Of a stretch of 43,326 bases of DNA, positions 24,855-43,326 are shown one piece after another; the stretch's first letter is position 1; every line of letters begins with the position of its first letter. The position numbers and the translations under genes are program-made. Under the pieces are notes generated by a model. It saw only the letters and a program-made list of their open reading frames with translations. It searched no databases and was not told where the DNA came from. The stretch is from a virus. The stretch spans positions 1 to 43,326 of the IMG/VR virus record IMGVR_UViG_3300021963_000240, one strand, 5' to 3'.

Positions 24855-24868
24855 AATATGTATAAAAA

Positions 24869-25465: not shown

Positions 25466-25474
25466 TAATTTAAA

Positions 25475-29567: not shown

Positions 29568-30050
29568 ATGAAAGTAATTGAAGTAGAAGCACCTATCTAT
29601 CCACGTAAAGCATATGTGGTAGAAGTTAATGAACAAGAATACCTGAATTTTACTGAAGGTATTGAAGTATTACCTGCCCAATATTATGAAAATGATAACG
29701 GTAACAAATTCTACTTCAAAAAATACCACCCAGACGGAACTCCAGGTTGGAAAGGTGGTGGATATGAATGTACTGATACTACAGGTGCTAGTAGAGCATT
29801 TCATACTGACTCATTAATTATACATCCTAGATACTTTAAACGTAAAGCAAAAGCTGAAAAAATACGTACAAGTAAAAGTACAGGTAAACGTGGTCGTCCA
29901 AAAATGGATCCATCTCTTAAAAAAGAACCTACAGTATACGTTAAAACAGGTGGTAAACGTGGTCGTCCAAAAATGGACCCAACATTAAAGAAATCAATTG
30001 TTTACGTTAAGACAGGCGGAAAACGCGGACGCCCAAGGAAAGATAGTTAA
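29568..30050 (+). CDS. Protein with three C-terminal AT-hooks, 160 aa
   Basis: Residues 1-95 form a compact domain (SH3-like or beta-barrel by pattern: RKAYVVEVNEQEYLNF, then KFYFKKYHPDGTPGWKGGG). A basic linker leads to three repeats of GKRGRPK or GKRGRPR at residues 106, 129 and 151, each inside a unit like VYVKTGGKRGRPKMDP. The GRP core with flanking basic residues is the AT-hook, which binds the minor groove of AT-rich DNA. The phage genome itself is AT-rich, so self DNA is a possible target. It is the last gene of the early-type block; a TATTTATC element follows. Confidence 0.78.
   Translation: MKVIEVEAPIYPRKAYVVEVNEQEYLNFTEGIEVLPAQYYENDNGNKFYFKKYHPDGTPGWKGGGYECTDTTGASRAFHTDSLIIHPRYFKRKAKAEKIRTSKSTGKRGRPKMDPSLKKEPTVYVKTGGKRGRPKMDPTLKKSIVYVKTGGKRGRPRKDS
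29883..30041 (+). repeat. Three tandem AT-hook coding repeats
   Basis: The repeat unit is about 66-69 bases. The first two units share GGTAAACGTGGTCGTCCAAA exactly. The third (GGAAAACGCGGACGCCCAAG) keeps the amino acids but differs at many third positions. This suggests that the first two copies arose or were homogenised recently and the third is older. Confidence 0.75.
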
Positions 30051-30064: not shown

Positions 30065-30814
30065 ATGAAAATTAGAATAAAAGAAACAAGTAATACACCA
30101 CAAGCGATATTTTTAGCAGGTCCTGCTGGGGCTGGTAAGTCGTTTATCGCGAAATCATTACCATTATCTAAATTTCGTGTCTTAAATATTGACGATACTT
30201 ATGAAGAATTGCTTAAAGCATCTGGATTAGGTATGAAACAAAAAGATTTTGATGCTGACCAATTGTCTCAAGCCGCTAAATTAATGGGACAAGCGCAAAA
30301 AGCTACTAAAGAAAAATACGCTGACGCACTCAGTAATTTACACGACATTATTATTGATGGAACAGGTGCAGCTTCTAAACCTTTACTTAAGAAAAAGGCA
30401 GAATTAGAGGCTTTAGGCTATGAAACAATGATGGTAATGATATGGGTTTCACCTGTAACATCACTTGAACGTAATGCTAATAGAGACCGCTCATTAATGC
30501 CAGGTATTGTTTTAAGAACATGGAGAGATATTAATTACAATGACGAAATATATGCTAAAGCATTTGGTGACAATTTAGTTGTTATAAATAACGATCCAAA
30601 AGATGCTGATAAAAGCTTTGATCCCCAAGAAATAAAGCGTAGATTTTTCGACACATCTAAGGCTAAAGGTAAACCAAAAACACCTGAAGAATTAGAAAAA
30701 GCAAAAGCGGATATTGAAAAATTAAATAAAGACATTGAATTAGCACTTCAACAAAAACCAAAATTCACTCCAGCTGCGACAGCTGTGGCTAAAATAAAGG
30801 CATTTATTAAATGA
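30065..30814 (+). CDS. P-loop kinase (zeta-toxin/PNK-like) with N-terminal tag, 249 aa
   Basis: The Walker A motif GPAGAGKS is at residues 19-26 after a strand (QAIFLA). A later IIIDGTGA segment and an Arg-rich region (SLERNANRDRSLMPGIVLRT) fit kinases of the zeta-toxin or polynucleotide-kinase type, which phosphorylate sugars or nucleic-acid ends. The N-terminus MKIRIKE ends in I-K-E and is identical to that of the membrane protein at 36458, although the two proteins are otherwise unrelated. This suggests a targeting tag removed by the prohead protease. The C-terminal 50 residues are Lys-rich. ATGA overlap with the next gene. Confidence 0.78.
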   Translation: MKIRIKETSNTPQAIFLAGPAGAGKSFIAKSLPLSKFRVLNIDDTYEELLKASGLGMKQKDFDADQLSQAAKLMGQAQKATKEKYADALSNLHDIIIDGTGAASKPLLKKKAELEALGYETMMVMIWVSPVTSLERNANRDRSLMPGIVLRTWRDINYNDEIYAKAFGDNLVVINNDPKDADKSFDPQEIKRRFFDTSKAKGKPKTPEELEKAKADIEKLNKDIELALQQKPKFTPAATAVAKIKAFIK

Positions 30815-32679
30815 TAGATTTAAATACAATACTAAATGAATTAACTGAAGACGATGACCAAAAATCAACTTCAGCTATTTGTTTTTATCCAGGAGGTTTT
30901 AAACCACCACATGAGGGACATTATGAAGTAGTTAAGGATTTAGCTGCTCGCCCGTATATTACTAAAGTAATAGTTTTAATTGGACATAAAACTCGTGATG
31001 GTATAACTAAAGAACAAAGTAAACGTATTTGGGATTTATATTTAGCTGCTTCACCAATGGCTAAAGTAGAAGTTAAAATAGCTACTAACCCAGCTCCAAT
31101 TAAAGATATTTTCTCTATAATGGATGGTGATTTAGAATTACAAGCATATGTAGCTGGTACTCCTGAAGGTGGAGAAGACCAATCCTATTTTGATTCATTA
31201 ACTAAAGCATTTGGTACTAGAATAAAACCATTATCAATTGAAGAAAAAGTAGTTACTCAAGGTAAGAGATTATCAGGAACTGATGTTCGTAACCTAATTA
31301 CTCAATTGAAACAATCAGTACTTGCTTTACGTTCAATATCTGATAAAAATTCAACAGAATATTCTAAAGCAAGAAACGCATATTTGAATACTTTAGAAAC
31401 ACTTAAAGGATGTTTTCCTGAAGTAATAATTCAGAAAGGACAATTTGATGATATATTAAAAATATTAGGTATTCCTGTTTTAAATGTTGGTCAATTACAA
31501 GAACAAGACCCACTAACATATAAACCCGAATCAGAAGATTTACCTGTTGATAGTGATGATAATATAACACCAGGTAAAGATTTAGTATTAAAAATACCTT
31601 ATCATTTAACTCCAAAAATTGAAAATTACTTAAATAGTAATTTAATTCCATTTGAATACTCTCAATATAGTTTTGGAGATCAAGCTAGAAGAATGGTTAT
31701 ACCAAGTTTAGATGATAGTGATAACCAACGAGCACAAGTATTACAATATCTATCTAAACATAACATACCAGTTAATGTAGAAGAAGATATGTTTACTATT
31801 AAATGGTGGAAAAAAAGTTTAGATGAATCATTAGACCAACCTGAAGAAACATCAGATAATCTTATTGCTGATTTTATTGATTTTGCTGCTCAAGCTCTTG
31901 AGTTACAACAAGTACCTAAAATCACTTTCACAGATGATGAAAAAGTATCTAAACAAATGCATGCTTTAGGTTCTTATCAACCAAGTACTGACACTTTATT
32001 AGTGGTAAAAGGACCAAGATTAACAGCTGATGTTTTACGTACATTAGCTCATGAATTAGTACATCGTAAACAAGCTGAAATAGGTCCTTTAGGAGCTGAG
32101 GATGGTAAAACAGGTTCAGAAGCAGAAAATGAAGCAAATGCCGCAGCAGGTGTTTTATTAAGACAGTTTGGTAAGTATAGACCTGAAATATTTGAAGAAG
32201 GAGTTGGAGAAGAAGCACATAAAATATATTGTGACATGGATGGTGTGTTAGTTGATTTTGAAAAAGGATATGAAGAATTAACTGGACAAGATATTAAAGG
32301 ACAACATGTAGCAAGCAGTGCTGATTTTTGGGGCCCTATATCTAAAGCAGGAGCTGCATTTTGGATTAAACTAAAATGGATGCCTGATGGAAAACAACTA
32401 TGGGAATATATTAAACAATACAACCCAGTTTTATTATCAGCTCCATCACGTGAAGAATCATCAAAAATAGGTAAACGTGTTTGGGTAAAAAGAGAATTAC
32501 CTGGTGTTAAATTAGTTTTACGCTCAGCTGAACGTAAACAAGAATTTGCTACACCAAAATCTATACTAATAGACGATAGAAAAGACAATATTGAAAGATG
32601 GAAAGAAGCAGGTGGTGTAGGAATTTATCACACATCCGCAGCTGATACTATCCAACAATTAAAAAAATTAGGGTTATAA
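30811..32679 (+). CDS. Nucleotidyltransferase-metallopeptidase-HAD fusion protein, 622 aa
   Basis: Three domains can be read. First, residues 20-165 form a cytidylyltransferase-like nucleotidyltransferase with FYPGGFKPPHEGH (HxGH at 34-37) and the second signature GKRLSGTDVRN. Second, residues about 355-450 contain a zinc-peptidase motif H414-E-L-V-H in TLAHELVHRKQA with a downstream Glu-rich helix. Third, residues 472-622 are a HAD-type phosphatase: YCDMDGVLVDFEKGYE (D475, D477), then LLSAPSREES and ILIDDRKDNIERW. A beta linker (260-350) joins the first two. The N-terminus MIDLNTILNE ends in L-N-E like its neighbours. The combined role is unknown; NAD, nucleotide-sugar or RNA-end chemistry are candidates. 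Confidence 0.84.
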   Translation: MIDLNTILNELTEDDDQKSTSAICFYPGGFKPPHEGHYEVVKDLAARPYITKVIVLIGHKTRDGITKEQSKRIWDLYLAASPMAKVEVKIATNPAPIKDIFSIMDGDLELQAYVAGTPEGGEDQSYFDSLTKAFGTRIKPLSIEEKVVTQGKRLSGTDVRNLITQLKQSVLALRSISDKNSTEYSKARNAYLNTLETLKGCFPEVIIQKGQFDDILKILGIPVLNVGQLQEQDPLTYKPESEDLPVDSDDNITPGKDLVLKIPYHLTPKIENYLNSNLIPFEYSQYSFGDQARRMVIPSLDDSDNQRAQVLQYLSKHNIPVNVEEDMFTIKWWKKSLDESLDQPEETSDNLIADFIDFAAQALELQQVPKITFTDDEKVSKQMHALGSYQPSTDTLLVVKGPRLTADVLRTLAHELVHRKQAEIGPLGAEDGKTGSEAENEANAAAGVLLRQFGKYRPEIFEEGVGEEAHKIYCDMDGVLVDFEKGYEELTGQDIKGQHVASSADFWGPISKAGAAFWIKLKWMPDGKQLWEYIKQYNPVLLSAPSREESSKIGKRVWVKRELPGVKLVLRSAERKQEFATPKSILIDDRKDNIERWKEAGGVGIYHTSAADTIQQLKKLGL

Positions 32680-32682
32680 ATA
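32675..32682 (+). promoter_or_regulatory. TATAAATA element
   Basis: An exact T4 late consensus overlapping the stop codon of the fusion gene, 10 bases before the ATG at 32693. It may restart late transcription for the following genes. Overlap with the coding end lowers confidence. Confidence 0.35.
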
Positions 32683-32692
32683 AAAAATTGTT

Positions 32693-33268
32693 ATGAGTGA
32701 ATCAAACTTAAAAAAAGAATTCTCTAAACGTGATGTTCAGAGAATGCGAAATATTATCTCTCAAAAATCAGGAGATGCTACAGGTACTCAAGTAGGATAT
32801 AATAAACAACATCAAGATTACCAAGAAGGAGACGTTTGGGAAGAAAGTGGCAAACAATGGACTATTAAAAACGGTATTAAACAAACTGTAACTAAGTTTG
32901 ATAAACTTAAACAAATGTTCATTATGCCTATCGCATGTCCTAAATGTAGTCAAGCAATGGTTGTTAATGACTTGAATAAGAAAATGTGGAATATACATCA
33001 AATGTGTTTTGATTGTGTTATTAAAATGGAAGCACAACTTAAAGTTGAAGGTAAGTATGAAGAGTATGAGCGTAATATGATGAACAAAAATAAAAATGCT
33101 ATGGTTGATGATTTTGAAAAAGCTGTAGAAGATTTTTATAATACTCGCGCTGAATCATATGTTACTGAACAAGGTGATGTTGAAACATGGGGAGGTGGTA
33201 AAATTAATGAAGAAGAAATTAAGAATGTTAAAGAATATATTAAAAAACTTCGCGAACATCAGATATAA
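32693..33268 (+). CDS. Zinc-ribbon protein, 191 aa
   Basis: Four cysteines form a zinc ribbon (C82-x2-C85 and C105-x2-C108) in the context MPIACPKCSQAMVVND and HQMCFDCVIKME. The N-terminal region is basic (KKEFSKRDVQRMRNIISQ), and the middle has a WEESGKQWTIKNGIKQT beta segment. The C-terminal 80 residues are helical and charged. The family is unknown to me by name. It has no [I/L]-x-E tag close to the N-terminus, unlike most of its neighbours, so it may not belong to the putative packaged set. Confidence 0.7.
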   Translation: MSESNLKKEFSKRDVQRMRNIISQKSGDATGTQVGYNKQHQDYQEGDVWEESGKQWTIKNGIKQTVTKFDKLKQMFIMPIACPKCSQAMVVNDLNKKMWNIHQMCFDCVIKMEAQLKVEGKYEEYERNMMNKNKNAMVDDFEKAVEDFYNTRAESYVTEQGDVETWGGGKINEEEIKNVKEYIKKLREHQI

Positions 33269-33271
33269 GGA

Positions 33272-33279
33272 TATTTATA
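33272..33279 (+). promoter_or_regulatory. TATTTATA element close to a start codon
   Basis: The sequence is GGATATTTATACTCATG: the motif ends three bases before the ATG at 33283, as in the copy at 11872. The identical spacing in two places suggests a role that involves the start codon, or leaderless transcripts. Confidence 0.35.
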
Positions 33280-33282
33280 CTC

Positions 33283-33579
33283 ATGAATGATAATATCTAC
33301 ACCGTCTTAATGACAGCTATTACCGTATTGGGTAGCGCCGCTGCGTTTCGATTTTATGAAAAGAAAGCAATGCATAGAGAACGTGATGAAGATTTTATCC
33401 GCCATGACTGCAAAGATAGAATCGCCAAATTAGAAGCACTATTAGTAACATCTGCCAGAGAAAAAGATGAATTACGCAGTATGGTATTACAACTTACTAA
33501 AGAAGTAGCCGCACTTACAGTTAAAGTCGAGTTTTTAACTGCTGAAAATTCTAAGCTCGAAAAATCACTAAAGAAATAA
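33283..33579 (+). CDS. Membrane-anchored coiled-coil protein, possible i-spanin, 98 aa
   Basis: There is one N-terminal transmembrane helix at about residues 5-23 (IYTVLMTAITVLGSAAAF) and a long coiled coil over residues 45-98 (DRIAKLEALLVTSAREKDEL, then LTKEVAALTVKVEFLTAENS). This layout, an inner-membrane anchor plus a periplasmic coiled coil, matches inner-membrane spanin subunits, which disrupt the outer membrane in the last step of lysis. No separate lipoprotein partner gene with a lipobox was found nearby. A tail-associated or membrane-scaffold role is an alternative. Confidence 0.6.
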   Translation: MNDNIYTVLMTAITVLGSAAAFRFYEKKAMHRERDEDFIRHDCKDRIAKLEALLVTSAREKDELRSMVLQLTKEVAALTVKVEFLTAENSKLEKSLKK

Positions 33580-33598
33580 TTAATTCGCCCCATTAATA

Positions 33599-33606
33599 TA
33601 TTTATA
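33599..33606 (+). promoter_or_regulatory. TATTTATA element overlapping a hairpin
   Basis: This motif lies in the gap before the Dps-like gene, 21 bases before the ATG at 33628. It overlaps the left arm of the hairpin at 33602-33625. Confidence 0.45.
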
Positions 33607-33625
33607 TAGGATAAAACCTATATAA
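33602..33625 (+). promoter_or_regulatory. Hairpin immediately before the start of the Dps-like gene
   Basis: TTATATAGG (33602-33610) and CCTATATAA (33617-33625) form a perfect 9-bp stem with the loop ATAAAA, ending two bases before the ATG at 33628. In mRNA it could hide or present the start codon. With no T-run behind it, a terminator is unlikely. An inverted operator is possible too. Confidence 0.45.
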
Positions 33626-33627
33626 TT

Positions 33628-34203
33628 ATGCCATATACTCGCAAAGGAAACTGCGTTTACAAAGAAACAGGCGCTAAAGTTGGATGTTCAAAAGACGCGG
33701 CTGGTGCTGATAAATACATGAAAGCGTTATACGCAGCAGATAAAGGAAATCTTAAGGAAGGATTCACAACTGAAGAAATTGATCCTGATCAACCCGAAAT
33801 AGCAGTGACTATCGCATTGCCTAGCCCAACACAAGTTATGGCTAGCTTTGTTTCAACGTTATTCGCATCACGTACACAAGCTCACATATTACATTTCCGT
33901 TGTAAAGGAGTTGGCGCTGGATGGATGCACACAGCTTTAAACGCTTATTATGATGGTATCATCCCGTTAGTAGATGGATTAGTAGAATCAGTACAAGGCC
34001 GTTACGGTTTATTAGAAGGATACAAAAGTGAAAGTCAATTTATTGAAGATACAAGTAAAACAATTCAATATTTTGAAGCATTATGTTTATATGTTGAAAA
34101 GAATCGTGGTTCTTTACCTCAAGATTCGTATATTCAAAATCAAATAGATGAAATAGTTGCTTTAATTGAAACAACTAAATATAAATTAATAAACTTACAA
34201 TAA
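33628..34203 (+). CDS. Dps/ferritin-like phage protein (DUF5856-like), 191 aa
   Basis: The N-terminal 45 residues form a short motif common in phage proteins (KGNCVYKETGAKVGCSKDAA, then KYMKALYAADKG), ending in L-K-E at 42-44. The main part (about residues 60-190) is a four-helix bundle that resembles Dps-type proteins: TQAHILHFRCKGVGAGWMHT, then ALNAYYDGIIPLVDGLVESV. Dps proteins bind DNA and oxidise iron. I associate this phage family with DUF5856. The His/Asp pattern (H in HILHF, D in YYDGIIPLVD) could form an iron site. The hairpin and TATTTATA element lie just upstream. Confidence 0.7.
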   Translation: MPYTRKGNCVYKETGAKVGCSKDAAGADKYMKALYAADKGNLKEGFTTEEIDPDQPEIAVTIALPSPTQVMASFVSTLFASRTQAHILHFRCKGVGAGWMHTALNAYYDGIIPLVDGLVESVQGRYGLLEGYKSESQFIEDTSKTIQYFEALCLYVEKNRGSLPQDSYIQNQIDEIVALIETTKYKLINLQ

Positions 34204-34577
34204 TGCGTATTCGTATAGTAAAAGAAGAAGATTTTACACCAATAGCTGACCCAAAGGAACCAAAACCCGCAGCTAAACAATTTCAAATATTAGCATCAAT
34301 GATCACTAACACTAAAGTTAATGATCAAACTAATATTTTGTCTGCTATGCGCGCGTTACCAGGTGTAACAATTGTAAATTCACAAGCAGCTATCCCCGGT
34401 TCTAATTCAGAAGGTCAATTACGTTATAAAACAAATGTTGATATCAAGATTGATACATCAGCTTTAGAAGGTGATGTGAAAGAAGGTATTAGAAAAATTG
34501 TTGAAGATATTAAAACTATAGAAGGTGTAGTTGAATTCAAAATATTACCTAAAGCTAAAGAAACAACTCCGTATTAA
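34203..34577 (+). CDS. Hypothetical protein, possible ferredoxin-like fold, 124 aa
   Basis: The last 95 residues show helix-strand-strand-helix-strand order (QFQILASMITNTKVNDQTNI, then AMRALPGVTIVNSQ, then RYKTNVDIKIDTS and IRKIVEDIKTIEGVVEFKIL), which suits a ferredoxin-like or ACT-like fold. The N-terminus MRIRIVKEEDF resembles the tag MKIRIKE of two other proteins here but gives I-V-K-E instead of strict I-x-E. It overlaps the Dps-like gene by one base (TAATG), so the two are coupled. Confidence 0.66.
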   Translation: MRIRIVKEEDFTPIADPKEPKPAAKQFQILASMITNTKVNDQTNILSAMRALPGVTIVNSQAAIPGSNSEGQLRYKTNVDIKIDTSALEGDVKEGIRKIVEDIKTIEGVVEFKILPKAKETTPY

Positions 34578-34579
34578 TC

Positions 34580-35230
34580 ATGAATAAGATTCAATTAAAA
34601 GAACATATTGAGAAAATCATTGACTATGTAGGCCAGGAGTATAATCATGGTCCTAAACTTGTAATGAATGAAAGTAAAAATCCAATTTTTATTTCTGAGG
34701 GTCTATTTTATCACATTGAGAATAATTTACCACTTAACGAATCTATATACCGTCCTCAATCCATGATGTTTTTAAAATTATTTGTTGAGGCAAGAAATTT
34801 ATACAACAATAAACATTTAGTATTATGCGAAGCTGATAAGAGATACTTTGATAATACTGATATAGGCACATTTGGTAACTATAATGGTATTAAAGTACCA
34901 CTAGACTTACCCTTGACCGAGGAATTTTTGAGTGAAGCCCTAAATGAAGAAGACAAAAAACAACCAGCATTAGGTAAACCTAAAAGAGGTGGTGCTAAAA
35001 AATTCTATGTGTATGTTAAGAAAGGTGATAAAATAAAAAAAGTATCATTTGGTATGGCTGGTGGAGGCTTAAGAGCAAAATTAAACAACCCAGAAGCTAG
35101 ACGAGCATTTTCAAAAAGAATGAACTGTCCTAAAGCAACTGATCGAACAACAGCCCGCTATTGGAGCTGTCGTTTACCTCGCTATGCTAAATTATTAGGT
35201 TTTAAAACAACATTTAGTGGATATTGGTAA
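34580..35230 (+). CDS. Phage protein with C-terminal DUF5872-like domain and N-terminal tag, 216 aa
   Basis: The tag MNKIQLKE ends in L-K-E (residues 6-8), and further [I/L]-x-E sites lie at FISEGL and LPLNESI, so processing at several places is possible. The C-terminal 80 residues form a conserved basic domain: KKFYVYVKKGDKIKKVSFGM, then GLRAKLNNPEARRAFSKRMN, then DRTTARYWSCRLPRYAKLLG. I associate it with DUF5872, found in many phages, but this is from memory of the pattern. The basic character and Arg/Lys clusters suggest DNA binding. Confidence 0.68.
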   Translation: MNKIQLKEHIEKIIDYVGQEYNHGPKLVMNESKNPIFISEGLFYHIENNLPLNESIYRPQSMMFLKLFVEARNLYNNKHLVLCEADKRYFDNTDIGTFGNYNGIKVPLDLPLTEEFLSEALNEEDKKQPALGKPKRGGAKKFYVYVKKGDKIKKVSFGMAGGGLRAKLNNPEARRAFSKRMNCPKATDRTTARYWSCRLPRYAKLLGFKTTFSGYW

Positions 35231-35486
35231 ACCATATACAGATCTGTTAATAACAGATGAATATATAATTAGGGAATTTGATGAAAACATTGACCCTATA
35301 GAATTAATGTGGCATCGAGATGATGAAAACAGGTTAGTTGAAGCAATAGAACCAACAAATTGGTTGGTACAACTTGATAATCAACTACCAATGTCTATGG
35401 ATAAACCAATATTTATACCAAGACATGAATGGCATAGAACCATAAAAGGAACAGGTAAATTAAAGATTAAAATATATAAATCATGA
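35217..35486 (+). CDS. Cupin-like conserved phage protein, 89 aa (GTG start)
   Basis: The pattern ELMWHRDDENRLVEAIEPTN, then WLVQLDNQLPM, then IFIPRHEWHRTIKGTGKLKI matches small cupin-like phage proteins with His/Glu metal-ligand candidates (H and E around WHRDDEN, and H in HEWH). The function in phages is unknown. The start is GTG at 35217, which overlaps the end of the previous gene by 14 bases. The next in-frame Met is too far inside the conserved region to be the start. It has no [I/L]-x-E tag. Confidence 0.7.
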   Translation: MDIGKPYTDLLITDEYIIREFDENIDPIELMWHRDDENRLVEAIEPTNWLVQLDNQLPMSMDKPIFIPRHEWHRTIKGTGKLKIKIYKS

Positions 35487-35701
35487 AACTAATAGATATC
35501 CTAAAAGAAGATTATAATAAACCAACAGTTGAACAACTTGACAAATATTGGACTATTATGATTGAAAACCAACCAGAAGATGTTGTTAAAACATTAACAG
35601 GTTTAGTAACAGGTGAAGTATCATTTGAAGCATTTAAAGAATCCACTATAGAGGATACATTTGATTCATTTAGAGATGATTTATATAATAACGAAGACTA
35701 A
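35483..35701 (+). CDS. Small tagged acidic protein, 72 aa
   Basis: The N-terminus MKLIDILKE ends in L-K-E (residues 7-9), and the rest is an acidic helical protein (TVEQLDKYWTIMIENQPEDV). Its small size and the tag recall T4 internal proteins, which are small and packaged in the head. The gene overlaps the cupin-like gene by four bases (ATGA). No other motif is seen. Confidence 0.64.
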   Translation: MKLIDILKEDYNKPTVEQLDKYWTIMIENQPEDVVKTLTGLVTGEVSFEAFKESTIEDTFDSFRDDLYNNED

Positions 35702-35721
35702 ACTATTTAAATAAAAATAAA

Positions 35722-36165
35722 ATGAAAAAATCTGAATTAAAACAATTAATCAGAGAAGCAATCGAAGAGATTAAACCTCAAGTTGAGGAAAATGAAATAA
35801 TCAACGAAGCTTTCGCTCCAGAAACTGACGAAGTAGGCGCATTTTGGGTGGTAGAAAAACCATCTATCAGCTCTACTATAGACGATATTTGCTTTGAATG
35901 CGAGAATGTCGCTTATTTTGCTAACCAAGTTAGAGGTGGTTTAGACCCAGCTAACGTTAAAGGTATCTTCACTAAAGAAGCTAAAGCTAAGAAATTAGCT
36001 GAAAAATTATTAGCAGATCTTGACAAAAAGAAAAACGAAGTTAAAGCTGCTGCTGACGCTTACAAAAAGATGAAGGAAGAAACTTTAGCTAAAGTAAGTG
36101 AATATATGAAAAATAAAAAAGCTACTAAAGCAGTAGTTGACGAATTAAAAGACGAGACTAAATAA
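35722..36165 (+). CDS. Tagged helical protein, 147 aa
   Basis: The first residues MKKSELKQLIRE end in I-R-E (residues 10-12). A globular segment (EVGAFWVVEKPSISSTIDDI, then CFECENVAYFANQVRGGLDP) follows, then a long Lys/Glu/Ala helix with coiled-coil character over the last 60 residues. The first seven residues (MKKSELK) are nearly the same as those of the next protein (MKRSELK), while the rest is unrelated. The tag suggests packaging in the head. A short gap with an AT-rich leader precedes the ATG. Confidence 0.68.
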   Translation: MKKSELKQLIREAIEEIKPQVEENEIINEAFAPETDEVGAFWVVEKPSISSTIDDICFECENVAYFANQVRGGLDPANVKGIFTKEAKAKKLAEKLLADLDKKKNEVKAAADAYKKMKEETLAKVSEYMKNKKATKAVVDELKDETK

Positions 36166-36458
36166 TGAAACGCTCCGAATTAAAAAATATAGTTAAAGAA
36201 CTAGTTGAAAGAGAAATTGGTCAAAGTGAAACTGATCCTGAAACAGGCATCAAAACCACTTTAACTAATGTCGACCCAGAAACAGATAAATATTCTTGGG
36301 ATGTGTCGTATGAAGTTGATCCCCAATTTTTATATACTAAATTAAATCAATTAGTTGACTATTTAAAAAAAGCTCCTGAAGGTTCTGAGTTAGCTCAATT
36401 TAGAGATATTCTTAAGAATTTAAAAAACAGAACTGCTAGAGTAATAAACAATAAGTAA
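36165..36458 (+). CDS. Tagged small protein, 97 aa
   Basis: MKRSELKNIVKELVEREIG carries L-V-E at residues 13-15 and a near match I-V-K-E before it. The rest contains an acidic Gly/Thr loop (ETDPETGIKTTLTNVDPETD) and a C-terminal amphipathic helix (LYTKLNQLVDYLKKAPEG). It overlaps both neighbours by one base. The family is unknown. It looks like another small internal-head-protein candidate. Confidence 0.64.
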   Translation: MKRSELKNIVKELVEREIGQSETDPETGIKTTLTNVDPETDKYSWDVSYEVDPQFLYTKLNQLVDYLKKAPEGSELAQFRDILKNLKNRTARVINNK

Positions 36459-37000
36459 TGAAAATTAGAATTAAAGAAGACGAAGCAACAAGTGCATTAT
36501 CACAAATAAAAACTCAAATGAGTGCTTTTATGGGTGGTATGGAAGATGCTCTTGAAGATAAAGCAAAAGATCAAAAAGAAAGTGCGATACTTACTACCTC
36601 AAGTCTTTTATTAGCATTACCTGCTATTTTAGGCTTAATCGCTCGTTTAGGCAAAGCAATGAGTTCAATTATTAAAAGAACTATTGGTACTGCTTCACAA
36701 CATCAATCAGACTCTGAAAAATATTTCCAACAAATGGGTCGTATAGCTGATGAATTACATCATTTATATATTAAACCTATTGAATTAATAGTTAGACGTT
36801 TTGTAAAAGATCCAACTAAAGCAGCAAAAGCAGCTAACTTTATTTTTCACGCTATTATAGCAATAATGTGTATCGCATCAGGTGTTACAGCTGTAAAAGC
36901 ATTAAGAGCAAAAGCAATTAACTTAGCTACTTTAGAAACTGCGTTAGCAGCTGTTAAAGGTGGTGAAGTAAAAACATATATTTCTAAATTAATAGCATAA
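36458..37000 (+). CDS. Tagged membrane protein with two hydrophobic helices, 180 aa
   Basis: The N-terminus MKIRIKE is identical to that of the kinase at 30065. Hydrophobic segments lie at about residues 43-63 (AILTTSSLLLALPAILGLIA) and 126-146 (ANFIFHAIIAIMCIASGVTA), with a helical middle domain (DSEKYFQQMGRIADELHHLY). If it is packaged in the head and released on infection, it could act at the host inner membrane, for example as part of a DNA or protein entry channel. That is inference. It overlaps both neighbours by one base. Confidence 0.68.
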   Translation: MKIRIKEDEATSALSQIKTQMSAFMGGMEDALEDKAKDQKESAILTTSSLLLALPAILGLIARLGKAMSSIIKRTIGTASQHQSDSEKYFQQMGRIADELHHLYIKPIELIVRRFVKDPTKAAKAANFIFHAIIAIMCIASGVTAVKALRAKAINLATLETALAAVKGGEVKTYISKLIA

Positions 37001-37872
37001 TGAAAGATAATTTTAACATACATAGCTGGCAACTAAAACAAGCTATAAACGAATTAGAAGAAACAGAAAAAATAAAAGGTAAAGACGGTAAAGGCTGTTG
37101 GAAAGGATACAGATATGCTGGTACTGAAAATGGTAAAGATAAATGTGTACCTGTAAAAGAAGGAGAAATTGGATTATCTGATATCTTAGCTCGTGAATTA
37201 TTTAAATTACAAGGTAAAATTTCTGATGATTTATTCTATAAATTAAGAAAAGCTATTAACTCACAAGACCCAGCTGCTTTAGCTAAAGCTAAAGAAATTA
37301 TGAGTCGTATCAAACCAGAAGATGATCGTATCTACATGAGTGAAAATGAAGGACAATGTCCTGAATGTGGATGTGAGATGGAAGGTAAAATGTGTAACGA
37401 ATGTGGATACGCAATGAATGAAAATAAATCATCATTTTATTCTCGTGACTATGTTGAACAAAAATACGGCGCTGAAAAAGCAAAAGAAATAGAACAAAAT
37501 ATCGAATACGAAGAAGATAATAATCCTAATATTTGGGATTTATATGTGAATATGCAATCACCAGAAGAAGTAGATGATTTTGTACAAGGATTTATTGATG
37601 AATCAACATTTACAGGAAAATACAATGACGATCCTAAATTAAAAGGTGGTCAAAAAGATTTACCTGATGAAGTACAAGCTAAAATTGTAGCTAAAGAAGG
37701 CGAAATGGATGAAGCAATGTTTACATCTGCTAATTCTAACAATCCAGAAGGTGATAAATTAGTATTACGTTTCTTACAAGGTATAGCTAAGAAATTTGAC
37801 TATCCTGTAGAACAAGCAGCTATATTCGTTAAAGAAAGAATCAAAAAATTAGGTTTAGATAATGAAGCTTAA
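37000..37872 (+). CDS. Tagged zinc-ribbon protein, 290 aa
   Basis: The N-terminus MKDNFNIHSWQLKQAINE ends in I-N-E (residues 16-18). Next comes GKGCWKGYRYAGTENGKDKC, a short motif common near the start of phage proteins. A zinc ribbon lies at residues 120-135 with CPEC, C and CNEC. The C-terminal 60 residues (ANSNNPEGDKLVLRFLQGIA) form a small helical domain. The overall role is unknown. The start is coupled to the membrane protein by a one-base overlap, and the end overlaps the next gene by 11 bases. Confidence 0.72.
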   Translation: MKDNFNIHSWQLKQAINELEETEKIKGKDGKGCWKGYRYAGTENGKDKCVPVKEGEIGLSDILARELFKLQGKISDDLFYKLRKAINSQDPAALAKAKEIMSRIKPEDDRIYMSENEGQCPECGCEMEGKMCNECGYAMNENKSSFYSRDYVEQKYGAEKAKEIEQNIEYEEDNNPNIWDLYVNMQSPEEVDDFVQGFIDESTFTGKYNDDPKLKGGQKDLPDEVQAKIVAKEGEMDEAMFTSANSNNPEGDKLVLRFLQGIAKKFDYPVEQAAIFVKERIKKLGLDNEA

Positions 37873-39727
37873 AATTATAAAGGCACGTCCATTAAAAGAA
37901 GAGGAAGAAGTTGTAGATCAACAGCCTGATGCTGTAACTGAACCAAAACCAGAAATTACATTTGAATCTAACCCGTTAGAATTCATGTTAATGAAATATC
38001 CTTCATTAGAGGAAACATTAGTAGAATTATTAACTGAAGATTTTAGAGATTATCTTACAGGTATCTATATTATGGCTCCTAAGCCAACTATATTTAAGAT
38101 TGTTTTACATAACAATCAATATTTCTATTTAACATGGATGGGTAAGAATTATCAAGCTAAAGTAAGTGGTAAAAAACATTACTTATCTAATTTAGGTGAT
38201 AAAGAAAGAGCAACTATTGATATTGCTGATTTATTAACAATGGGAGCGCCACCACAAGCAGCTGGTCCTGATGCTGAAACAACAGCAACAGTAGAACCTG
38301 AAACATCAACTGAAGAAGAAGTACCAGCAGAAGAAGCACCTGAAGAAATAGCTGAGTCAAAAAAAAAGTTTCTTTTAAACTTGTTGGAAAGTACAATCAC
38401 TGAGTTAACTATATCTCCTGATTATCAAACAAAAAAAGGACCTAATCCATATTATACTATCACACCTGAAGCTGAGTCTAATATTAAAAAAGCTTTAAAA
38501 GGTAAAACAGATACTAATAATCTACTATTTAAAAATGTAGAAACACCCGGTACTTTAATTTACCAAGAAAAAGGAAATAATTATTTTCAAGTAATGAATT
38601 TAATTGGTGATAAAGCTAAAGCTACAAAATACTATGTAGCCTTATCTAAATCATCAGTAACAGGACATTACGGAGAATCAAGTAAAGGATCTGGTGGTGG
38701 AGCTGAACAAACAGCAGTTCAAGAATCTGCTCAATGTTTAGTTAACGCTATTCGTTATAGTAAAGGAAAAGATATAACACCTAAAGATTTAACAGCAACC
38801 AACATTAAATCTACTTCAAAACGTGTAAATACATCCTCATCAGTTGAAGAAATAGTAACATTCCTTAAAAATAATCCAGATTGGCAAACAACTGCTTCTA
38901 ATACAGCTAATATTTTAGCTAAACAATACCCTGGTAACTTTACTTTTTATAGACAATCAGGTATTGTCCCTAAAATAGAAACTGCTGCTAAAACAGCTCT
39001 TAAAAATGCTGGAGTAGATGCTAATATAAATAAATGGAACCCAGCTGACATATGGATGGCTACTGATGAAATTAAAGATATTGAGTTTCCAACTGATTTA
39101 ACTAAATTAAATACTTTAATAAATAAATTATTTAATGCTAAAAAATTAATTGGTGTATCATTAAAGAAATGTAGCTCTTGTAAAATCGAAGTTTATAACA
39201 ATCCTAAAGAAGCAAAATCATCTACTAAATTTGATAAAGTAGAACCTAAAGATAAAAATGTATTTGCTACTAAAGATATTTATTTGAGTTTTGATGGTGG
39301 TAAAGTACAATTTAGAAATTTTAACGATATAACTAGCTGGCAAGGAGAAATTAAAGGAAAAGAAGCATCAGCTGGAAAAATAGGGCAAGGAATTGTAAGT
39401 TCTATTCTAAAAAGTTTAGGACAACGTGGTTTATCTAACCAAAAAGAAATATTAACATCTTGCCAAAAACCAGATACTGATTTTATAAATAATTTTTACA
39501 AATTATATAATAGTACTAAATCATTATCTAAAGTAAATGCTAATGAATTTAATACTAACTTTAAAAAAGCACCATTAGGTAATAGAACAAGTAATTACTT
39601 TAATGTTGAATTTTTAAGTCAATTTGATAAATTAAGCGGTAATGGTAAAGATAAATTTATAAGTGAATTAGTTGGGTATGCTAAATCAAGTTCTAGCTTC
39701 TCATCTATGTTCGTTAAAGTATCATAA
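37862..39727 (+). CDS. Large tagged protein of unknown function, 621 aa
   Basis: MKLKIIKARPLKE ends in L-K-E (residues 11-13). Residues 45-125 look like a small globular domain (TIFKIVLHNNQYFYLTWMGK). A Pro/Glu/Ala/Thr-rich linker (about 135-165) follows. The rest (about 180-621) is a large Lys-rich domain with the segments ESAQCLVNAIRYSKGKDITP and NKWNPADIWMATDEIKDIEF, which recall restriction-enzyme-like or virion-protein folds but give no clear family. It ends at a TATTTATA element. By size and tag it could be the counterpart of T4 Alt, a packaged enzyme, but I see no ADP-ribosyltransferase motif. Confidence 0.7.
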   Translation: MKLKIIKARPLKEEEEVVDQQPDAVTEPKPEITFESNPLEFMLMKYPSLEETLVELLTEDFRDYLTGIYIMAPKPTIFKIVLHNNQYFYLTWMGKNYQAKVSGKKHYLSNLGDKERATIDIADLLTMGAPPQAAGPDAETTATVEPETSTEEEVPAEEAPEEIAESKKKFLLNLLESTITELTISPDYQTKKGPNPYYTITPEAESNIKKALKGKTDTNNLLFKNVETPGTLIYQEKGNNYFQVMNLIGDKAKATKYYVALSKSSVTGHYGESSKGSGGGAEQTAVQESAQCLVNAIRYSKGKDITPKDLTATNIKSTSKRVNTSSSVEEIVTFLKNNPDWQTTASNTANILAKQYPGNFTFYRQSGIVPKIETAAKTALKNAGVDANINKWNPADIWMATDEIKDIEFPTDLTKLNTLINKLFNAKKLIGVSLKKCSSCKIEVYNNPKEAKSSTKFDKVEPKDKNVFATKDIYLSFDGGKVQFRNFNDITSWQGEIKGKEASAGKIGQGIVSSILKSLGQRGLSNQKEILTSCQKPDTDFINNFYKLYNSTKSLSKVNANEFNTNFKKAPLGNRTSNYFNVEFLSQFDKLSGNGKDKFISELVGYAKSSSSFSSMFVKVS

Positions 39728-39735
39728 TATTTATA
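39728..39735 (+). promoter_or_regulatory. TATTTATA element
   Basis: Directly after the stop codon of the 621-aa gene, 14 bases before the ATG at 39750. Confidence 0.45.
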
Positions 39736-39749
39736 ATATATAACAAAAA

Positions 39750-40298
39750 ATGAAAAAACAAATTAACGAAATTAAAAAAATGCAGCGTTTAGCTGGATTA
39801 ATCACTGAAAGTGAATATCAAGAATCATTACTAAATGAAAATAATAATTATGATATATTAAAAGCAGCGTGGGAAACTATGCTTAATGATCCAAGTATTA
39901 ATTCAAAAGAATTAGCTATTAATGGTTTTAAGAATAGATTAGAGTATAAATTTAATAGTCTTGAAGAAAAAGAATACATAACACAATTAGCTAAAAGTCA
40001 AGGACTAGATTTATCAGGATCAGAAGGTAATAAACTGTATTTTTCTCTTCCAGGAACTGAACAACCTACATCAAATATAGCAGGAGGAAGTGAAGTTCCA
40101 CTTACTCCAAAAGTAAGAAGATATATTGATAAAGTAGTAACTGATGCTAAAGCAGATGGAGAATTTGAAAATTTAGTAAAATATGGATTCTTTGATACAG
40201 AATTAATAGACAATATTATTGAAGATATATTTCCAGATAATGATTATGATAGTGCTTCAAAAGAAGTAATGGATTATATTGCAAAAGTAACTAGTTAA
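39750..40298 (+). CDS. Tagged acidic protein, 182 aa
   Basis: MKKQINEIKKMQRLAGLITE contains I-N-E at 5-7 and I-T-E at 18-20, so two possible processing sites. The IKKMQRLAGLITE.EY pattern is a recurring start in marine phage proteins. The rest is helical and acidic with a Gly-rich spacer (AGGSEVPLTPKVRRYIDKVV). No enzyme motif is visible. It is the last gene of the cluster and is followed by a terminator hairpin. Confidence 0.66.
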   Translation: MKKQINEIKKMQRLAGLITESEYQESLLNENNNYDILKAAWETMLNDPSINSKELAINGFKNRLEYKFNSLEEKEYITQLAKSQGLDLSGSEGNKLYFSLPGTEQPTSNIAGGSEVPLTPKVRRYIDKVVTDAKADGEFENLVKYGFFDTELIDNIIEDIFPDNDYDSASKEVMDYIAKVTS

Positions 40299-40352
40299 TA
40301 AACATATAGACAGATTCATAGCCTGTCGACATAAATAATACTATGCAGCTGT

Positions 40353-40373
40353 GGCGCACCCAAAAGGTGTGCC
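40353..40373 (+). terminator. Hairpin terminator after the tagged-protein cluster
   Basis: GGCGCACC (40353-40360) pairs with GGTGTGCC (40366-40373), with one G-U pair and a CAAAA loop, followed by the pyrimidine run TCTCTCTATCT. A smaller hairpin (GACAG and CTGTC near 40311-40329) precedes it. It closes the 30065-40298 series. Confidence 0.65.
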
Positions 40374-40397
40374 TCTCTCTATCTGACCTAAAAAATA

Positions 40398-40405
40398 AAT
40401 TTATA
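40398..40405 (+). promoter_or_regulatory. AATTTATA element
   Basis: A one-base variant of TATTTATA between the terminator and the gene at 40416, ten bases before its ATG. Position after a terminator supports a promoter role. Confidence 0.4.
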
Positions 40406-40415
40406 TTTAGTTATT

Positions 40416-40910
40416 ATGAATATATTTTACATAGATCCAAATCCAAGATTAGCTGCTAAACAATTAGTAGACGACCACATTCGTAAAATGCAAATTGAAT
40501 CAGCACAAATGTTATGTACAACATTTCATCATTATGGTATTGAAGCACCATATAAAAAAGCTCATTATAATCACCCATCTACAAAATGGGTTCGTGAATC
40601 AATAAACCATGCTAAGTGGTTACTTGAACATGGATTAGAGATATGTGATGAGTTCGTTATTAGATATGGTAAGTCACATGCTACAGAAAAAGTTTTGCTA
40701 TGGATAAAAGATAACTTATCTTTATTAGAAGGTAAAATTCCGAATAGTGAATTTATACCACCACCACAATGTATGCCTGATGAATATAAAGCAGATGATA
40801 CATTAGAAGCATATAGAAACTTTTATATTAAAGATAAAATAGGAATTAAAAAATTAAATTATAACAAACTAAATAACACACCAGAATGGATAAAAAAATC
40901 GTTATTGTAG
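40416..40910 (+). CDS. Conserved phage protein of the 'pyrimidine dimer glycosylase-like' annotation group, 164 aa
   Basis: The sequence NIFYIDPNPRLAAKQLVDDH, then IRKMQIESAQMLCTTFHHYG, then YKKAHYNHPSTKWVRESINH and AKWLLEHGLEICDEFVIRYG follows a pattern of a widespread phage family that databases sometimes label as pyrimidine-dimer DNA glycosylase-related. Several invariant-looking His, Arg and Glu residues suggest an enzyme. The glycosylase label is weakly supported, so I would treat the function as unknown. The gene end overlaps the next by 25 bases. Confidence 0.68.
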   Translation: MNIFYIDPNPRLAAKQLVDDHIRKMQIESAQMLCTTFHHYGIEAPYKKAHYNHPSTKWVRESINHAKWLLEHGLEICDEFVIRYGKSHATEKVLLWIKDNLSLLEGKIPNSEFIPPPQCMPDEYKADDTLEAYRNFYIKDKIGIKKLNYNKLNNTPEWIKKSLL

Positions 40911-42208
40911 GAGCAGGAGTAGCAGGGATAAACGCTGCTACTAAGTTAGTAGACAATGGATATGATGGTAGTTTAATTACAATCATAGATAAAGGTAATG
41001 ATCCAATCAATCGTTTACCTGAAGAAGTAATGACAGGAATGTTAGGTGCTGGAGGTTGGAGTGATGGTAAATTAACTTATCATACTGCAATTGGTGGACA
41101 GTTAGCTAAATACTGTGGTGAAGAAAAAGCAATGGATTTAATGAAACAAGTAGTAGATAACTTTACTCGTTTTCATCCTAAACCAGAAGAAATCTTTATG
41201 TCTGATCCACAAGAAGAACCTGAATTTATTAAACCGTATTTTGGTTTAAGAATGTTTCCTGTATGGCATATTGGTTCAAATTATTTACATGAGATTGCTA
41301 AAACATGGTATCAATATCTATTAGATAAGGGTGTTAGATTTGAATGGAATACAACTGTTATTAACATTGATTTCCAGAAACAAGATATTACAACAGTATG
41401 TGAAAATCCTAAATTAGCAGAGTATTATAATTACGATGAATTAATATTCGCAGTAGGTAAATCAGGTATTGATTTCGCTCAACATTTATCAAATCTATAT
41501 GAATTACCAACTGAACCTAAATCAGTACAAATTGGTGTTCGATTTGAAGCACCACAAAAATATTTCCAAAAACTAATTGATGTTAGTTATGATTTTAAAT
41601 TATATCAAAAATTTGATAATGTATCTTTAAGATCATTCTGTACTAATAATAATGCCGCTTATGTCGCTGTAGAAGAAACATATGGTGATTTAAGTTATAA
41701 TGGCCATGCTAAGAAAGGTGAGGAATTTAGAAACGATATGACTAACTTTGGTATTTTAATGGAAATTAAAGGTATTGAAGATCCATTTAAATGGAGTAGA
41801 GATGTAGTTAGTAAATTACAAACTGATGGAAAAGGATTATATTATAGTCCATCTAGAACTGTAAGTAAAACATCTGAAGGTACAGATGTAACAGCTTATC
41901 AAATTGAGTTTTTAGATGGATTTAAAGAAGCAATGGGTGAATATGCTGATTATGTTTTAAACTTTATTGATGATATGAATAAAGTATTTGAATTTGGCGA
42001 TGATTGGGGTATGTATATTCCTGAAGTGAAGTACTTATCACCTGAACCATTAGTTAATTATCATAATTTATCATTAACAACTTATCCAAATGTTTACTTT
42101 GTAGGAGATGCTTTAAGTGCTCGTGGTATCACAGTATCAGGTGCTCATGGTATTTATGTAGCTGAAAAATTAATTCAACTTAGTCATCTTAAAGACTTAA
42201 CACAATAA
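40886..42208 (+). CDS. FAD-dependent dehydrogenase (COG2509-like), 440 aa
   Basis: An N-terminal Rossmann dinucleotide-binding motif GAGVAG at residues 9-14 follows the strand KKIVIV. A Gly-rich GMLGAGGWSDGKL segment at about residues 50-62 and a C-terminal FAD-contacting motif YFVGDALSARGITVSGAHG are typical of FAD-dependent dehydrogenases similar to COG2509. The substrate is unknown. It is not a standard T4-like gene, so it may have come from a host as an auxiliary metabolic gene. The ATG lies 25 bases inside the end of the previous gene, which suggests translational coupling. Confidence 0.82.
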   Translation: MDKKIVIVGAGVAGINAATKLVDNGYDGSLITIIDKGNDPINRLPEEVMTGMLGAGGWSDGKLTYHTAIGGQLAKYCGEEKAMDLMKQVVDNFTRFHPKPEEIFMSDPQEEPEFIKPYFGLRMFPVWHIGSNYLHEIAKTWYQYLLDKGVRFEWNTTVINIDFQKQDITTVCENPKLAEYYNYDELIFAVGKSGIDFAQHLSNLYELPTEPKSVQIGVRFEAPQKYFQKLIDVSYDFKLYQKFDNVSLRSFCTNNNAAYVAVEETYGDLSYNGHAKKGEEFRNDMTNFGILMEIKGIEDPFKWSRDVVSKLQTDGKGLYYSPSRTVSKTSEGTDVTAYQIEFLDGFKEAMGEYADYVLNFIDDMNKVFEFGDDWGMYIPEVKYLSPEPLVNYHNLSLTTYPNVYFVGDALSARGITVSGAHGIYVAEKLIQLSHLKDLTQ

Positions 42209-42258
42209 TTATGCTTTTAACCTCAATAAATAAATTATATTTAATTAAATAAAATAAT

Positions 42259-42489
42259 ATGGCTAAAGATACAGGAGTAAAACGAATGAAAACAGTTGAT
42301 GGTAAAATTGTTTACCATCTAGACGGTAAATTACATAATTGGGAAGAACCAGCGATAATTCATCCAGATGGTAAAAAAGAATATTGGTTATTTGGTATTC
42401 AATACACTAAAGATGAATTTATGGATCGTAAACGTGATTCAAATGGTGTACCACCAGCAAAGGACCCGAAATATGATACACGTCTCTAA
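42259..42489 (+). CDS. Small conserved phage protein with HxDGKxH-type repeat, 76 aa
   Basis: The segment YHLDGKLHNWEEPAIIHPDG, then KKEYWLFGIQYTKDEFMDRK follows a pattern seen in small phage proteins: DGKLHN-x-EGPA, DGK-EYW, G-x-x-YTKEEF. The family is beta-rich with repeated turns. Function unknown. It is preceded by a 50-base AT-rich gap (42209-42258) with no clear promoter apart from AT stretches. Confidence 0.66.
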   Translation: MAKDTGVKRMKTVDGKIVYHLDGKLHNWEEPAIIHPDGKKEYWLFGIQYTKDEFMDRKRDSNGVPPAKDPKYDTRL

Positions 42490-42493
42490 TTAA

Positions 42494-42501
42494 TATTTAT
42501 A
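42494..42501 (+). promoter_or_regulatory. TATTTATA element
   Basis: In the 25-base gap before the kinase gene, 13 bases before the ATG at 42515. Confidence 0.45.
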
Positions 42502-42514
42502 TCAAATACACAGT

Positions 42515-43036
42515 ATGAAAATAGGATTATGTGGTACAATGTCAGTTGGTAAAACAACGTTAGTTAAAGCGTTGTCAAAAACTGCTGAATTTAAAAATTA
42601 TAAAACTGCTACTGAACGTAGTAAGTATTTACGCGATTTAGGTATTCCATTAAATACTGATTCGACTGTTAATGGTCAATTTGTATTTTTAGCTGAACGT
42701 GCTAGTGAATTATTACATGAAAATATATTGACAGATAGAACAATATGGGATGTATGTTCATTTACAATGTTAGCTAAATCTATTGGAACGCATAATAAAT
42801 CTCAGTTTGTAAATGCAGCGATGACATTAAGAGATCAATATGATATTGTATTCTATATTGAACCTGTTGGTGTGGAAATGGAAGATAATGGTGTAAGAGA
42901 GACAAATCTTGAATATAGAGCTGATATTAATCAAGAAATATTGCGTCTGTTAGCATTATTTCCGCCTAAAAAATTGGTGATATTACATGGTCCAACTAAA
43001 GATCGTGTTAAAACTGTATTAGACGCTTTAAAATAA
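42515..43036 (+). CDS. P-loop NTPase/kinase (AAA_28 or NadR-like), 173 aa
   Basis: Walker A is GTMSVGKTT at residues 7-15 after the strand KIGLC. A NILTDRTIWDVCSFTMLAKS segment with the D-R pair resembles the DR(S/T)-type motif of nucleotide and nicotinamide-riboside kinases. The Arg near VRETNLEYRADI could serve in the lid. It may phosphorylate a nucleotide or nucleoside in the phage precursor pathway. The C-terminal part ends with a typical strand and helix (KLVILHGPTKDRVKTVLDAL). Confidence 0.78.
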   Translation: MKIGLCGTMSVGKTTLVKALSKTAEFKNYKTATERSKYLRDLGIPLNTDSTVNGQFVFLAERASELLHENILTDRTIWDVCSFTMLAKSIGTHNKSQFVNAAMTLRDQYDIVFYIEPVGVEMEDNGVRETNLEYRADINQEILRLLALFPPKKLVILHGPTKDRVKTVLDALK

Positions 43037-43038
43037 AA

Positions 43039-43046
43039 TATTTATT
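43039..43046 (+). promoter_or_regulatory. TATTTATT element
   Basis: A one-base variant of the TATTTATA element in the 29-base gap after the kinase gene, 19 bases before the ATG at 43066. Confidence 0.4.
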
Positions 43047-43065
43047 AACATAACAATAACAAATC

Positions 43066-43326
43066 ATGGCAGATTTCGATTACAAAAAGTTTATAACTGA
43101 AGCAAAACTTAAAATTAAAGTTCCTGTAAAGGAAATGGCACGTATTGCTAAAGAAAAATATAAATTAAACCCTGACTTTCCAGAAATTAAAGATAGAATT
43201 AAAAATCCATCAGGATACAAGACAGATAGAAAACAACAAGTAATTAACTACTTTATAGCTCAAGCTAAAGAACAAGGTATCAAACCATTTGATGTTGAGT
43301 TATTAAAGAGCGATATTGAAAAAAAT
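43066..43326 (+). CDS. Tagged protein, N-terminal part (3' end outside window)
   Basis: The frame is open from the ATG to the window end (87 codons). The N-terminus MADFDYKKFITEAKLK has I-T-E at residues 10-12 and is the closest match in the window to the T4 capsid-targeting sequence (MKTYQEFIAEA in internal proteins). The next part is Lys-rich and helical (KVPVKEMARIAKEKYKLN, then DRIKNPSGYKTDRKQQVINY). The function is unknown. The leader is AACAATAACAAATC and a TATTTATT element lies 19 bases before the start. Confidence 0.66.
   Translation, partial: MADFDYKKFITEAKLKIKVPVKEMARIAKEKYKLNPDFPEIKDRIKNPSGYKTDRKQQVINYFIAQAKEQGIKPFDVELLKSDIEKN

Follow-up and report, generated by a model that had tools for sequence, protein, structure and literature searches.

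T4-type N-terminal tags on a cluster of probably head-packaged proteins ahead of terL in a phage fragment related to Flavobacterium phage immuto

The IMG/VR record IMGVR_UViG_3300021963_000240, analysed here over its complete length of 43,326 bases (the window), represents part of a T4-superfamily myovirus genome and contains, at positions 30065-43326, a cluster of proteins that begin with short tags resembling those of T4 internal proteins. In T4, the internal proteins and Alt carry a capsid-targeting sequence of about 10 residues, and the prohead protease gp21 cuts after the motif [I/L]-x-E. A first-pass annotation of the window had reported this motif near the N-terminus of eleven proteins and had proposed that they are packaged in the head and ejected; all eleven open reading frames (ORFs) exist, with the Glu at residues 7-21. 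The tagged genes lie in the block ahead of terL, between the tail and head modules, in the conserved gene order gp6-primase-exonuclease-[cluster]-terL-portal-protease-major capsid protein. The gp6-like baseplate protein of the window shares about 80% identity with many environmental contigs and 46% with Flavobacterium phage immuto, which is among the few isolates that match. Since the phage records matching this protein are only 39-47% identical and one of them comes from a Microcystis phage, no host is claimed beyond kinship with a Flavobacterium-infecting isolate.

The cluster genes described here lie on the plus strand and are named by their start positions, and their start codons are regarded as secure because most overlap the previous gene by 1-14 bases or sit 0-2 codons after an in-frame stop. 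At the left end lies a P-loop kinase (Zeta_toxin/AAA_33-like, 30065-30814; Pfam Zeta_toxin, E 1.5e-8) with the tag MKIRIKE, in which the Glu of [IL]xE is residue 7; the motif is kept in 18/20 distinct orthologous N-termini despite differing tags (MKIRIKE, MIKLFDLLQE, MISLVQLLKE). The adjoining gene (30811-32679) encodes a fusion of a nucleotidyltransferase resembling nicotinamide mononucleotide adenylyltransferase (NMNAT) or cytidylyltransferase, a metallopeptidase-like domain and a HAD 5'-nucleotidase. Its tag MIDLNTILNE has Glu at residues 10/13, the former fitting the T4 pattern, and a PPHxGH motif can be seen in the nucleotidyltransferase domain; a sequence search of the PDB with the N-terminal domain gave no match. 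Residues 469-622 correspond to phrog_2643, a 5'-3' deoxyribonucleotidase (E 8.5e-27), the junction before this domain has a PEIFE invariant in five orthologues and followed by a variable linker, and in other relatives the nucleotidase is a separate gene. Only 21/37 orthologues of 30811 carry [IL]xE, many of them matching the nucleotidase domain only.

Farther along lies 34203-34577 with the tag MRIRIVKE, to which the first-pass annotation had ascribed merely a weaker version of the motif. Since its orthologues bear full tags (MRIRIKE, MRIRIVEA, MKLSELKQHIKEE or MKKSELIQLIKEE), it is counted as a probable twelfth tagged protein. Gene 34580-35230, a protein with a phrog_7595 basic C-terminal domain and the tag MNKIQLKE (Glu at residue 8), has [IL]xE in 37/37 distinct orthologous N-termini, for example MKISELRQLIKE, MDKTRLKKLIQE and MTRLQTLIKE. 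The full pattern hydrophobic-xx-hydrophobic-[IL]xE is present in the small protein 35483-35701 (MKLIDILKE, Glu at residue 9; 4-base overlap with the upstream gene), in 35722-36165 (MKKSELKQLIREA, Glu at residues 12/16), in 39750-40298 (MKKQINEIKKMQRLAGLITE, Glu at residues 7/20) and in 43066-43326 (MADFDYKKFITEA, Glu at residue 12), which is cut by the window end. The IRE/IKE at residue 12 of 35722 is retained in 8/8 close orthologues, and the site of 43066 in 8/8 distinct orthologous N-termini, complete orthologues of the latter (319-323 residues) lying directly upstream of terL. The neighbouring 36165-36458 (MKRSELKNIVKELVE, Glu at residue 15) keeps [IL]xE in 8/8 distinct orthologous N-termini. 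As had been noticed before, its start is nearly identical to that of 35722 (MKKSELK and MKRSELK), and the two N-termini are alike (score 44) on bodies without similarity; likewise, MKIRIKE is identical on the kinase 30065 and on 36458-37000, a protein with hydrophobic stretches and Glu at residue 7.

The eleven are not equally strong, 37000 and 37862 being the weakest. The former (37000-37872, with Cys-rich stretches) has a tag of a weaker class, NFNIHSWQLKQAINE, with Glu at residues 18/21, and [IL]xE is found in 10/11 of its distinct orthologous N-termini; in phage immuto a related N-terminus, MENNFDIHKWQ, is located between the protease and scaffold genes. The latter (37862-39727) is a 621-residue protein with the N-terminus MKLKIIKARPLKE (Glu at residue 13), the weakest of all, with [IL]xE in 45/85 orthologues and with distant homologues of which some carry a tag (MTKLAILRQLIKEE) and some do not. 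Its C-terminal phrog_1462 domain (E 2.9e-53; window 38612-39724) has invariant KWNPADIW and SLK motifs and gave a confident AlphaFold model, with a predicted local distance difference test (pLDDT) of 89.5 and a predicted template modelling score (pTM) of 0.84. Comparison of this model with the PDB gave no match at E <= 0.001, and therefore no function is assigned; the domain possibly represents a fold without a solved structure.

Clustering of the motif is not particular to the window. With [IL]xE screened within residues 5-21 and the cluster defined as the genes between exonuclease and terL, the motif is present in 125/242 cluster genes of 11 related genomes versus 348/1609 (22%) of their other genes, in the same direction in 11/11 genomes. 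In the window alone the counts are 11/23 cluster genes versus 4/34 others (Fisher p = 0.003), where the open-ended 43066 is excluded and the mis-started 35217 is included, giving a net 11-12/23. In T4, 72/269 genes (27%) have the motif in this interval, so the earlier estimate that about a quarter of proteins would carry it by chance, and the view that its frequency in the cluster is unexpected, are both borne out; because of this background of 22-27%, [IL]xE is retained as a screen only. After dereplication, 52.5% of 754 cluster N-termini carry the motif as compared to 25% of 1,414 other N-termini and 21% of internal stretches (Fisher p about 5e-37); since the genomes are related to one another, such p-values treat the data as more independent than they are, but the direction is the same throughout. 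Along the 754 N-termini the motif is densest at residues 8-14, and beyond residue 24 it is no more frequent than background. The residue after the Glu (P1') shows a modest excess of Ala, 15% versus 8-9%, too weak to be used alone.

A given family of bodies is either tagged or untagged in almost all of its members: apart from 30811 and 37862, each tagged family has [IL]xE conserved in most orthologues, and untagged families have it in 0/44 (32693), 0/17 (33283) and 1/48 (40886) distinct N-termini. The first-pass annotation had listed 32693 and 33283 as lacking the motif. For 35217, also listed there, an IRE occurs at residue 20 (from a GTG start); this is not a tag, because it is located within a conserved part of the protein body, and the protein remains untagged.

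The arrangement of residues within the tags provides a second, more specific line of evidence. Mutagenesis of the T4 IPIII tag assigns targeting to residues 4 and 7 and processing to residues 8 and 10 (review, PMC9026906); relative to the Glu at residue 10, T4 residues 4, 7 and 8 are positions -6, -3 and -2. Hydrophobic residues occupy -6 and -3 of the N-terminal [IL]xE sites of cluster proteins at frequencies, taken without fitting, of 0.65 and 0.61, as compared to 0.37 and 0.27 at internal sites of the same proteins, and both positions are hydrophobic in 246/521 N-terminal sites (47%) versus 168/1680 internal ones (10%). When hydrophobic residues are required at exactly positions 4, 7 and 8 together with Glu at 10 (the T4-position pattern), 84/754 cluster N-termini qualify versus 13/1414 others; in T4 itself this pattern retrieves four proteins, which are IPII, IPIII, gp24 and a small ORF starting MKTFKEFIKED. 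This 54-residue ORF (L324:16753-16917, T4 record OL964735) fits the tag pattern and, judged from its N-terminus, may be an unrecognised T4 internal protein. Strict tags are found in 43/147 cluster genes, 14/62 head-module genes, 29/1329 genes elsewhere and 9/1290 internal control stretches, and in the window 5/11 tagged proteins fit strictly.

The tags furthermore behave as modules that are separable from the bodies they precede. Among pairs of cluster proteins with unrelated bodies, 23/1644 have similar first 24 residues, versus 2/1644 for internal stretches and 16/10896 for N-termini of other genes. In a MAFFT alignment of 80 tagged sequences, with at least one sequence for each of about 60 body families, almost only 'MxxxxLxxIxxE' at the start is kept. 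At least five tag classes can be distinguished, namely MIKLxDILKE, MKKSELKQLIRE, NFDLKKFLxEN, RMQxLAGIITE and MKIRIKE. Tags of these classes are also borne by proteins of phage immuto, an isolate cultured on Flavobacterium strain LMO8; gp080 and gp076 are among its tagged proteins. The RMQxLAGIITE class, to which 39750 belongs, is carried by several unrelated proteins, including some encoded between the portal and capsid genes of relatives. Conversely, one body is found with different tags across phages, as seen for the kinase, the 34203 body and the 36458 body, the last of which bears MKIRIKE, MMKLKDILLE or an RMQxLAG-type tag, MNYIITEEILLLQKRAGIITE. Because the same body wears MKIRIKE or other tags, the MKIRIKE class is taken as equivalent to the others, although it lies outside the strict pattern. 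Comparison at the sequence level thereby shows that about a dozen window proteins, and many families in relatives, bear a T4-like N-terminal tag that is real and exchangeable; since such tags can be exchanged, new cargo can be recruited by the gain of a tag.

That a common short motif merely recurs by accident in N-termini rich in Lys, Glu and Leu is suggested by its background frequency and by N-termini shuffled at the same composition, which give about 6 matches versus the 11 seen in the window. Such an accident, however, would account neither for the agreement of all 11 genomes nor for the positional peak, the sharing and swapping of tags and the enrichment at -6 and -3, and is scarcely credible; chance is refuted for the cluster as a whole and is possible for single proteins such as 37862.

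An indication of the destination of tagged proteins comes from published virion proteomes of other T4-like phages. For the T4-like cyanophage S-CREM2, a table lists 52 virion proteins with coordinates (PMC10665884), and the T4-position pattern is found in 5/28 detected non-structural or hypothetical proteins versus 0/24 structural and 0/163 undetected ones (p = 5e-5). The five are an S-adenosylmethionine hydrolase (MKDFDSFLEE), an APH-like kinase (MKRFDAFLTEE), a cytidylyltransferase (MKNFSSFLTEA), ORF13 (MKDLHSFLTEQ) and ORF136 (MQTFSMFFSED); a Cas9-like virion protein has FASFMAEA slightly farther from its N-terminus. The only enzyme that was found in S-SZBM1 virions is a cytidylyltransferase starting MRFRQFIIEA, and the virion-detected NMNAT starts with MKSFLQFLKEA in S-SCSM1 and MKKFSAFLNEA in S-SM1. 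These proteomes support the conclusion that T4-type tags mark virion-packaged enzymes. The PPHxGH motif is common to 30811 and the cyanophage nucleotidyltransferases, each behind its own tag; their BLAST similarity is marginal (E 0.019), therefore they are assigned to the same enzyme class and orthology is not demonstrated. In Pelagibacter phage HTVC008M, a kinase (MIPFILKEG) precedes a nucleotidyltransferase, in the same order as 30065 and 30811.

The same proteomes bear on the idea that the N-terminal peptides target another assembly in the infected cell, such as the tail, baseplate, membrane or RNA polymerase, with no packaging in the head. The location of the genes between the tail and head modules, and the many uses served by amphipathic N-terminal helices, would suit this idea, but the S-CREM2 structural proteins that lack the T4-position pattern are mostly those of tail and baseplate, the enzymes detected in virions bear the tags, and the layout agrees with the T4 targeting positions, making it very improbable. 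Somewhat less remote, yet still unlikely, is that the tags dock proteins to the prohead core and that these proteins are core or scaffold components for building the head rather than injected effectors. Similar tags do occur on proteins encoded between portal and capsid genes, and T4 IPIII also influences head assembly (PMC9026906). Against such a role, the tags precede enzymes and inhibitors (kinase, nucleotidyltransferase, nucleotidase, Tad3, superoxide dismutase) whose bodies differ greatly among phages, whereas scaffold genes do not.

The processing machinery of T4-type heads is also present among relatives. Outside the window, where the first-pass annotation had suggested that a gp21-like prohead protease be sought, a gp21-family enzyme (Peptidase_S77) was found in 15/34 record searches of relatives (two records being searched twice), including every record above 110 kb. 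The protease orthologues have LxE at the N-terminus, and in the capsid proteins of relatives LLES, GLLEG and LVxE sites are conserved within the first 70 residues; the LVxE site appears to match the cleavage region of T4 gp23 and has V at the position where the 34203 tag has it.

Taken together, the eleven proteins and 34203 are very probably tagged proteins that a T4-superfamily phage, akin to a Flavobacterium-infecting one, packages inside its head and probably injects. Of the earlier proposal, the packaging part is well supported by enrichment, positional peak, tag sharing and swapping, T4 positions and the cyanophage virion enzymes, the outside proteomes coming from other T4-like phages and not from this one; cleavage after the Glu and injection into the host would follow if these proteins behave as in T4. 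Of the findings that the first-pass annotation had named as contradicting its proposal, none was encountered: relatives encode the protease, and the motif is less common in their remaining proteins. A targeting sequence of 7-20 residues would start each protein, the hydrophobic residues at its positions -6 and -3 would, by analogy with T4, bind the prohead core, and a gp21-type protease would cut after [I/L/V]xE during head maturation. The mature proteins would then remain in the head, enter the host along with the DNA and, to judge from their domains, act on targets of the first minutes such as host defence and the metabolism of nucleotides and nicotinamide adenine dinucleotide (NAD).

Several observations weigh against this reading. 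The 43-kb fragment has no protease, capsid or scaffold gene, some tagged genes lie outside the head region, and no virion proteome for this phage group was found in the literature. Over the whole S-SZBM1 proteome the enrichment is not significant (1/8 versus 10/181), the published data set being too shallow for this comparison, and two small S-SZBM1 proteins with textbook tags encoded near the terminase gene, orfs 191 and 192 (L331:32311-33125; MKSFKSFLSES and MKTFKQYITEA), were undetected in the published virion proteome. When applied to T4, a looser form of the pattern fails to pick up IPI and Alt and gives false positives at a rate of about 5%, and the stricter T4-like pattern in the window alone is not significant (5/23 versus 2/30, p = 0.12), therefore calls on single proteins lean on orthologues.

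Among known systems, the closest kind is that of the T4 internal proteins (Alt, IPI-III); the cluster is a larger version of it and uses several tag classes. As in IPI, IPII, IPIII and Alt, a short N-terminal tag ending in [L/I]xE is common to unrelated proteins; hydrophobic residues stand 6 and 3 before the Glu as in IPII/IPIII (MKTYQEFIAE, Y4 and F7), the set of cargo genes is variable, and a gp21-family protease is encoded in complete relatives. Unlike the few scattered genes of T4, about a dozen tagged candidates lie in one block beside terL, with at least five tag classes, many enzyme bodies and possibly multi-domain cargo with internal cleavage sites. The cyanophages S-CREM2, S-SZBM1, S-SCSM1 and S-SM1 have the 30811 class of nucleotidyltransferase, there virion-detected, with a T4-type tag, and S-CREM2 in addition a tagged virion kinase, but in another host and with mostly other cargo, and the tag is not named in the consulted passages of their papers. 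In the giant phages phiKZ and SPN3US, head-packaged ejection proteins have N-terminal propeptides that are removed after Glu by the prohead protease (PMC5694885), several of them longer than 100 residues as compared to about 7-20 here; long propeptides of that type were not encountered, as the motif is at background density beyond residue 24 and a Tad3 match in the relative L193 starts directly after the tag. For T-even phages, at least 10 internal proteins have already been reported on the basis of the signal (Repoila et al. 1994, as cited in PMC12373910). Novelty lies in the size of the set, in how many tag classes it uses, in a cargo rich in enzymes and in a dedicated locus in phages related to immuto; no prior description of such a tagged locus was found in the literature covered, most subscription journals lying outside that coverage.

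The cargo of the window comprises the zeta-toxin-like kinase, the nucleotidyltransferase-peptidase-nucleotidase fusion, the phrog_7595 protein and the phrog_1462 protein. In relatives, an iron/manganese superoxide dismutase is found behind the tag MIKLTDILKE (L245:7786-8484, also L246, L247 and L248), and the anti-Thoeris protein Tad3 behind MRLVDILKE in L193, with the Tad3 match (E 1e-32) starting at residue 11 directly after the tag. The latter is part of a single ORF (L193:2887-3621) in which the tag and the Tad3 domain are followed by another [IL]xE stretch and by a domain of the 34203 type, in a polyprotein-like arrangement. A PADLOC scan of the 80 tagged proteins gave no match. Tentatively, and with somewhat less than even confidence, this lineage may keep a dedicated, fast-changing cassette of head-delivered effectors, into which any inhibitor or enzyme could be drafted via interchangeable tags and in which some polyproteins, perhaps the L193 product and 30811, would be split by the prohead protease. 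In that case, Tad3 and other anti-immunity proteins would be at work ahead of any phage gene expression. Since each of T4 IPI-III inhibits a restriction enzyme of its own (PMC12373910), the tagged proteins of unknown function are good candidates for new anti-defence functions. Virion-carried phage proteins are normally learned only via proteomics of cultured phages; a tag layout fitting T4 mutagenesis, cyanophage virion proteomes and uncultured phages alike would allow candidate effectors for injection to be picked out from sequence alone. The position of anti-defence genes, enzymes of NAD and nucleotide metabolism and a superoxide dismutase beside the terminase gene of these phages would likewise be accounted for, as their products may arrive together with the incoming DNA, ahead of any action by host defences or oxidative stress.

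Untagged genes within the block, a pyrimidine-dimer glycosylase, a flavin adenine dinucleotide (FAD) oxidoreductase and a deoxynucleoside-kinase-like protein, look like enzymes acting in the infected cell. The first of these, a denV-like glycosylase (40416-40910), lies inside the cluster beside tagged genes, as T4 denV adjoins ipII and ipIII. A search of the window for the late-promoter motif TATAAATA was uninformative (18 matches versus 15 expected). Directly upstream of the cluster (29568-30050), the C-terminus of a protein has three AT-hook-like KRGRP(K/R) repeats, and in the tail region (23376-26557) three adjacent proteins have long stretches of Thr/Pro/Ser repeats.

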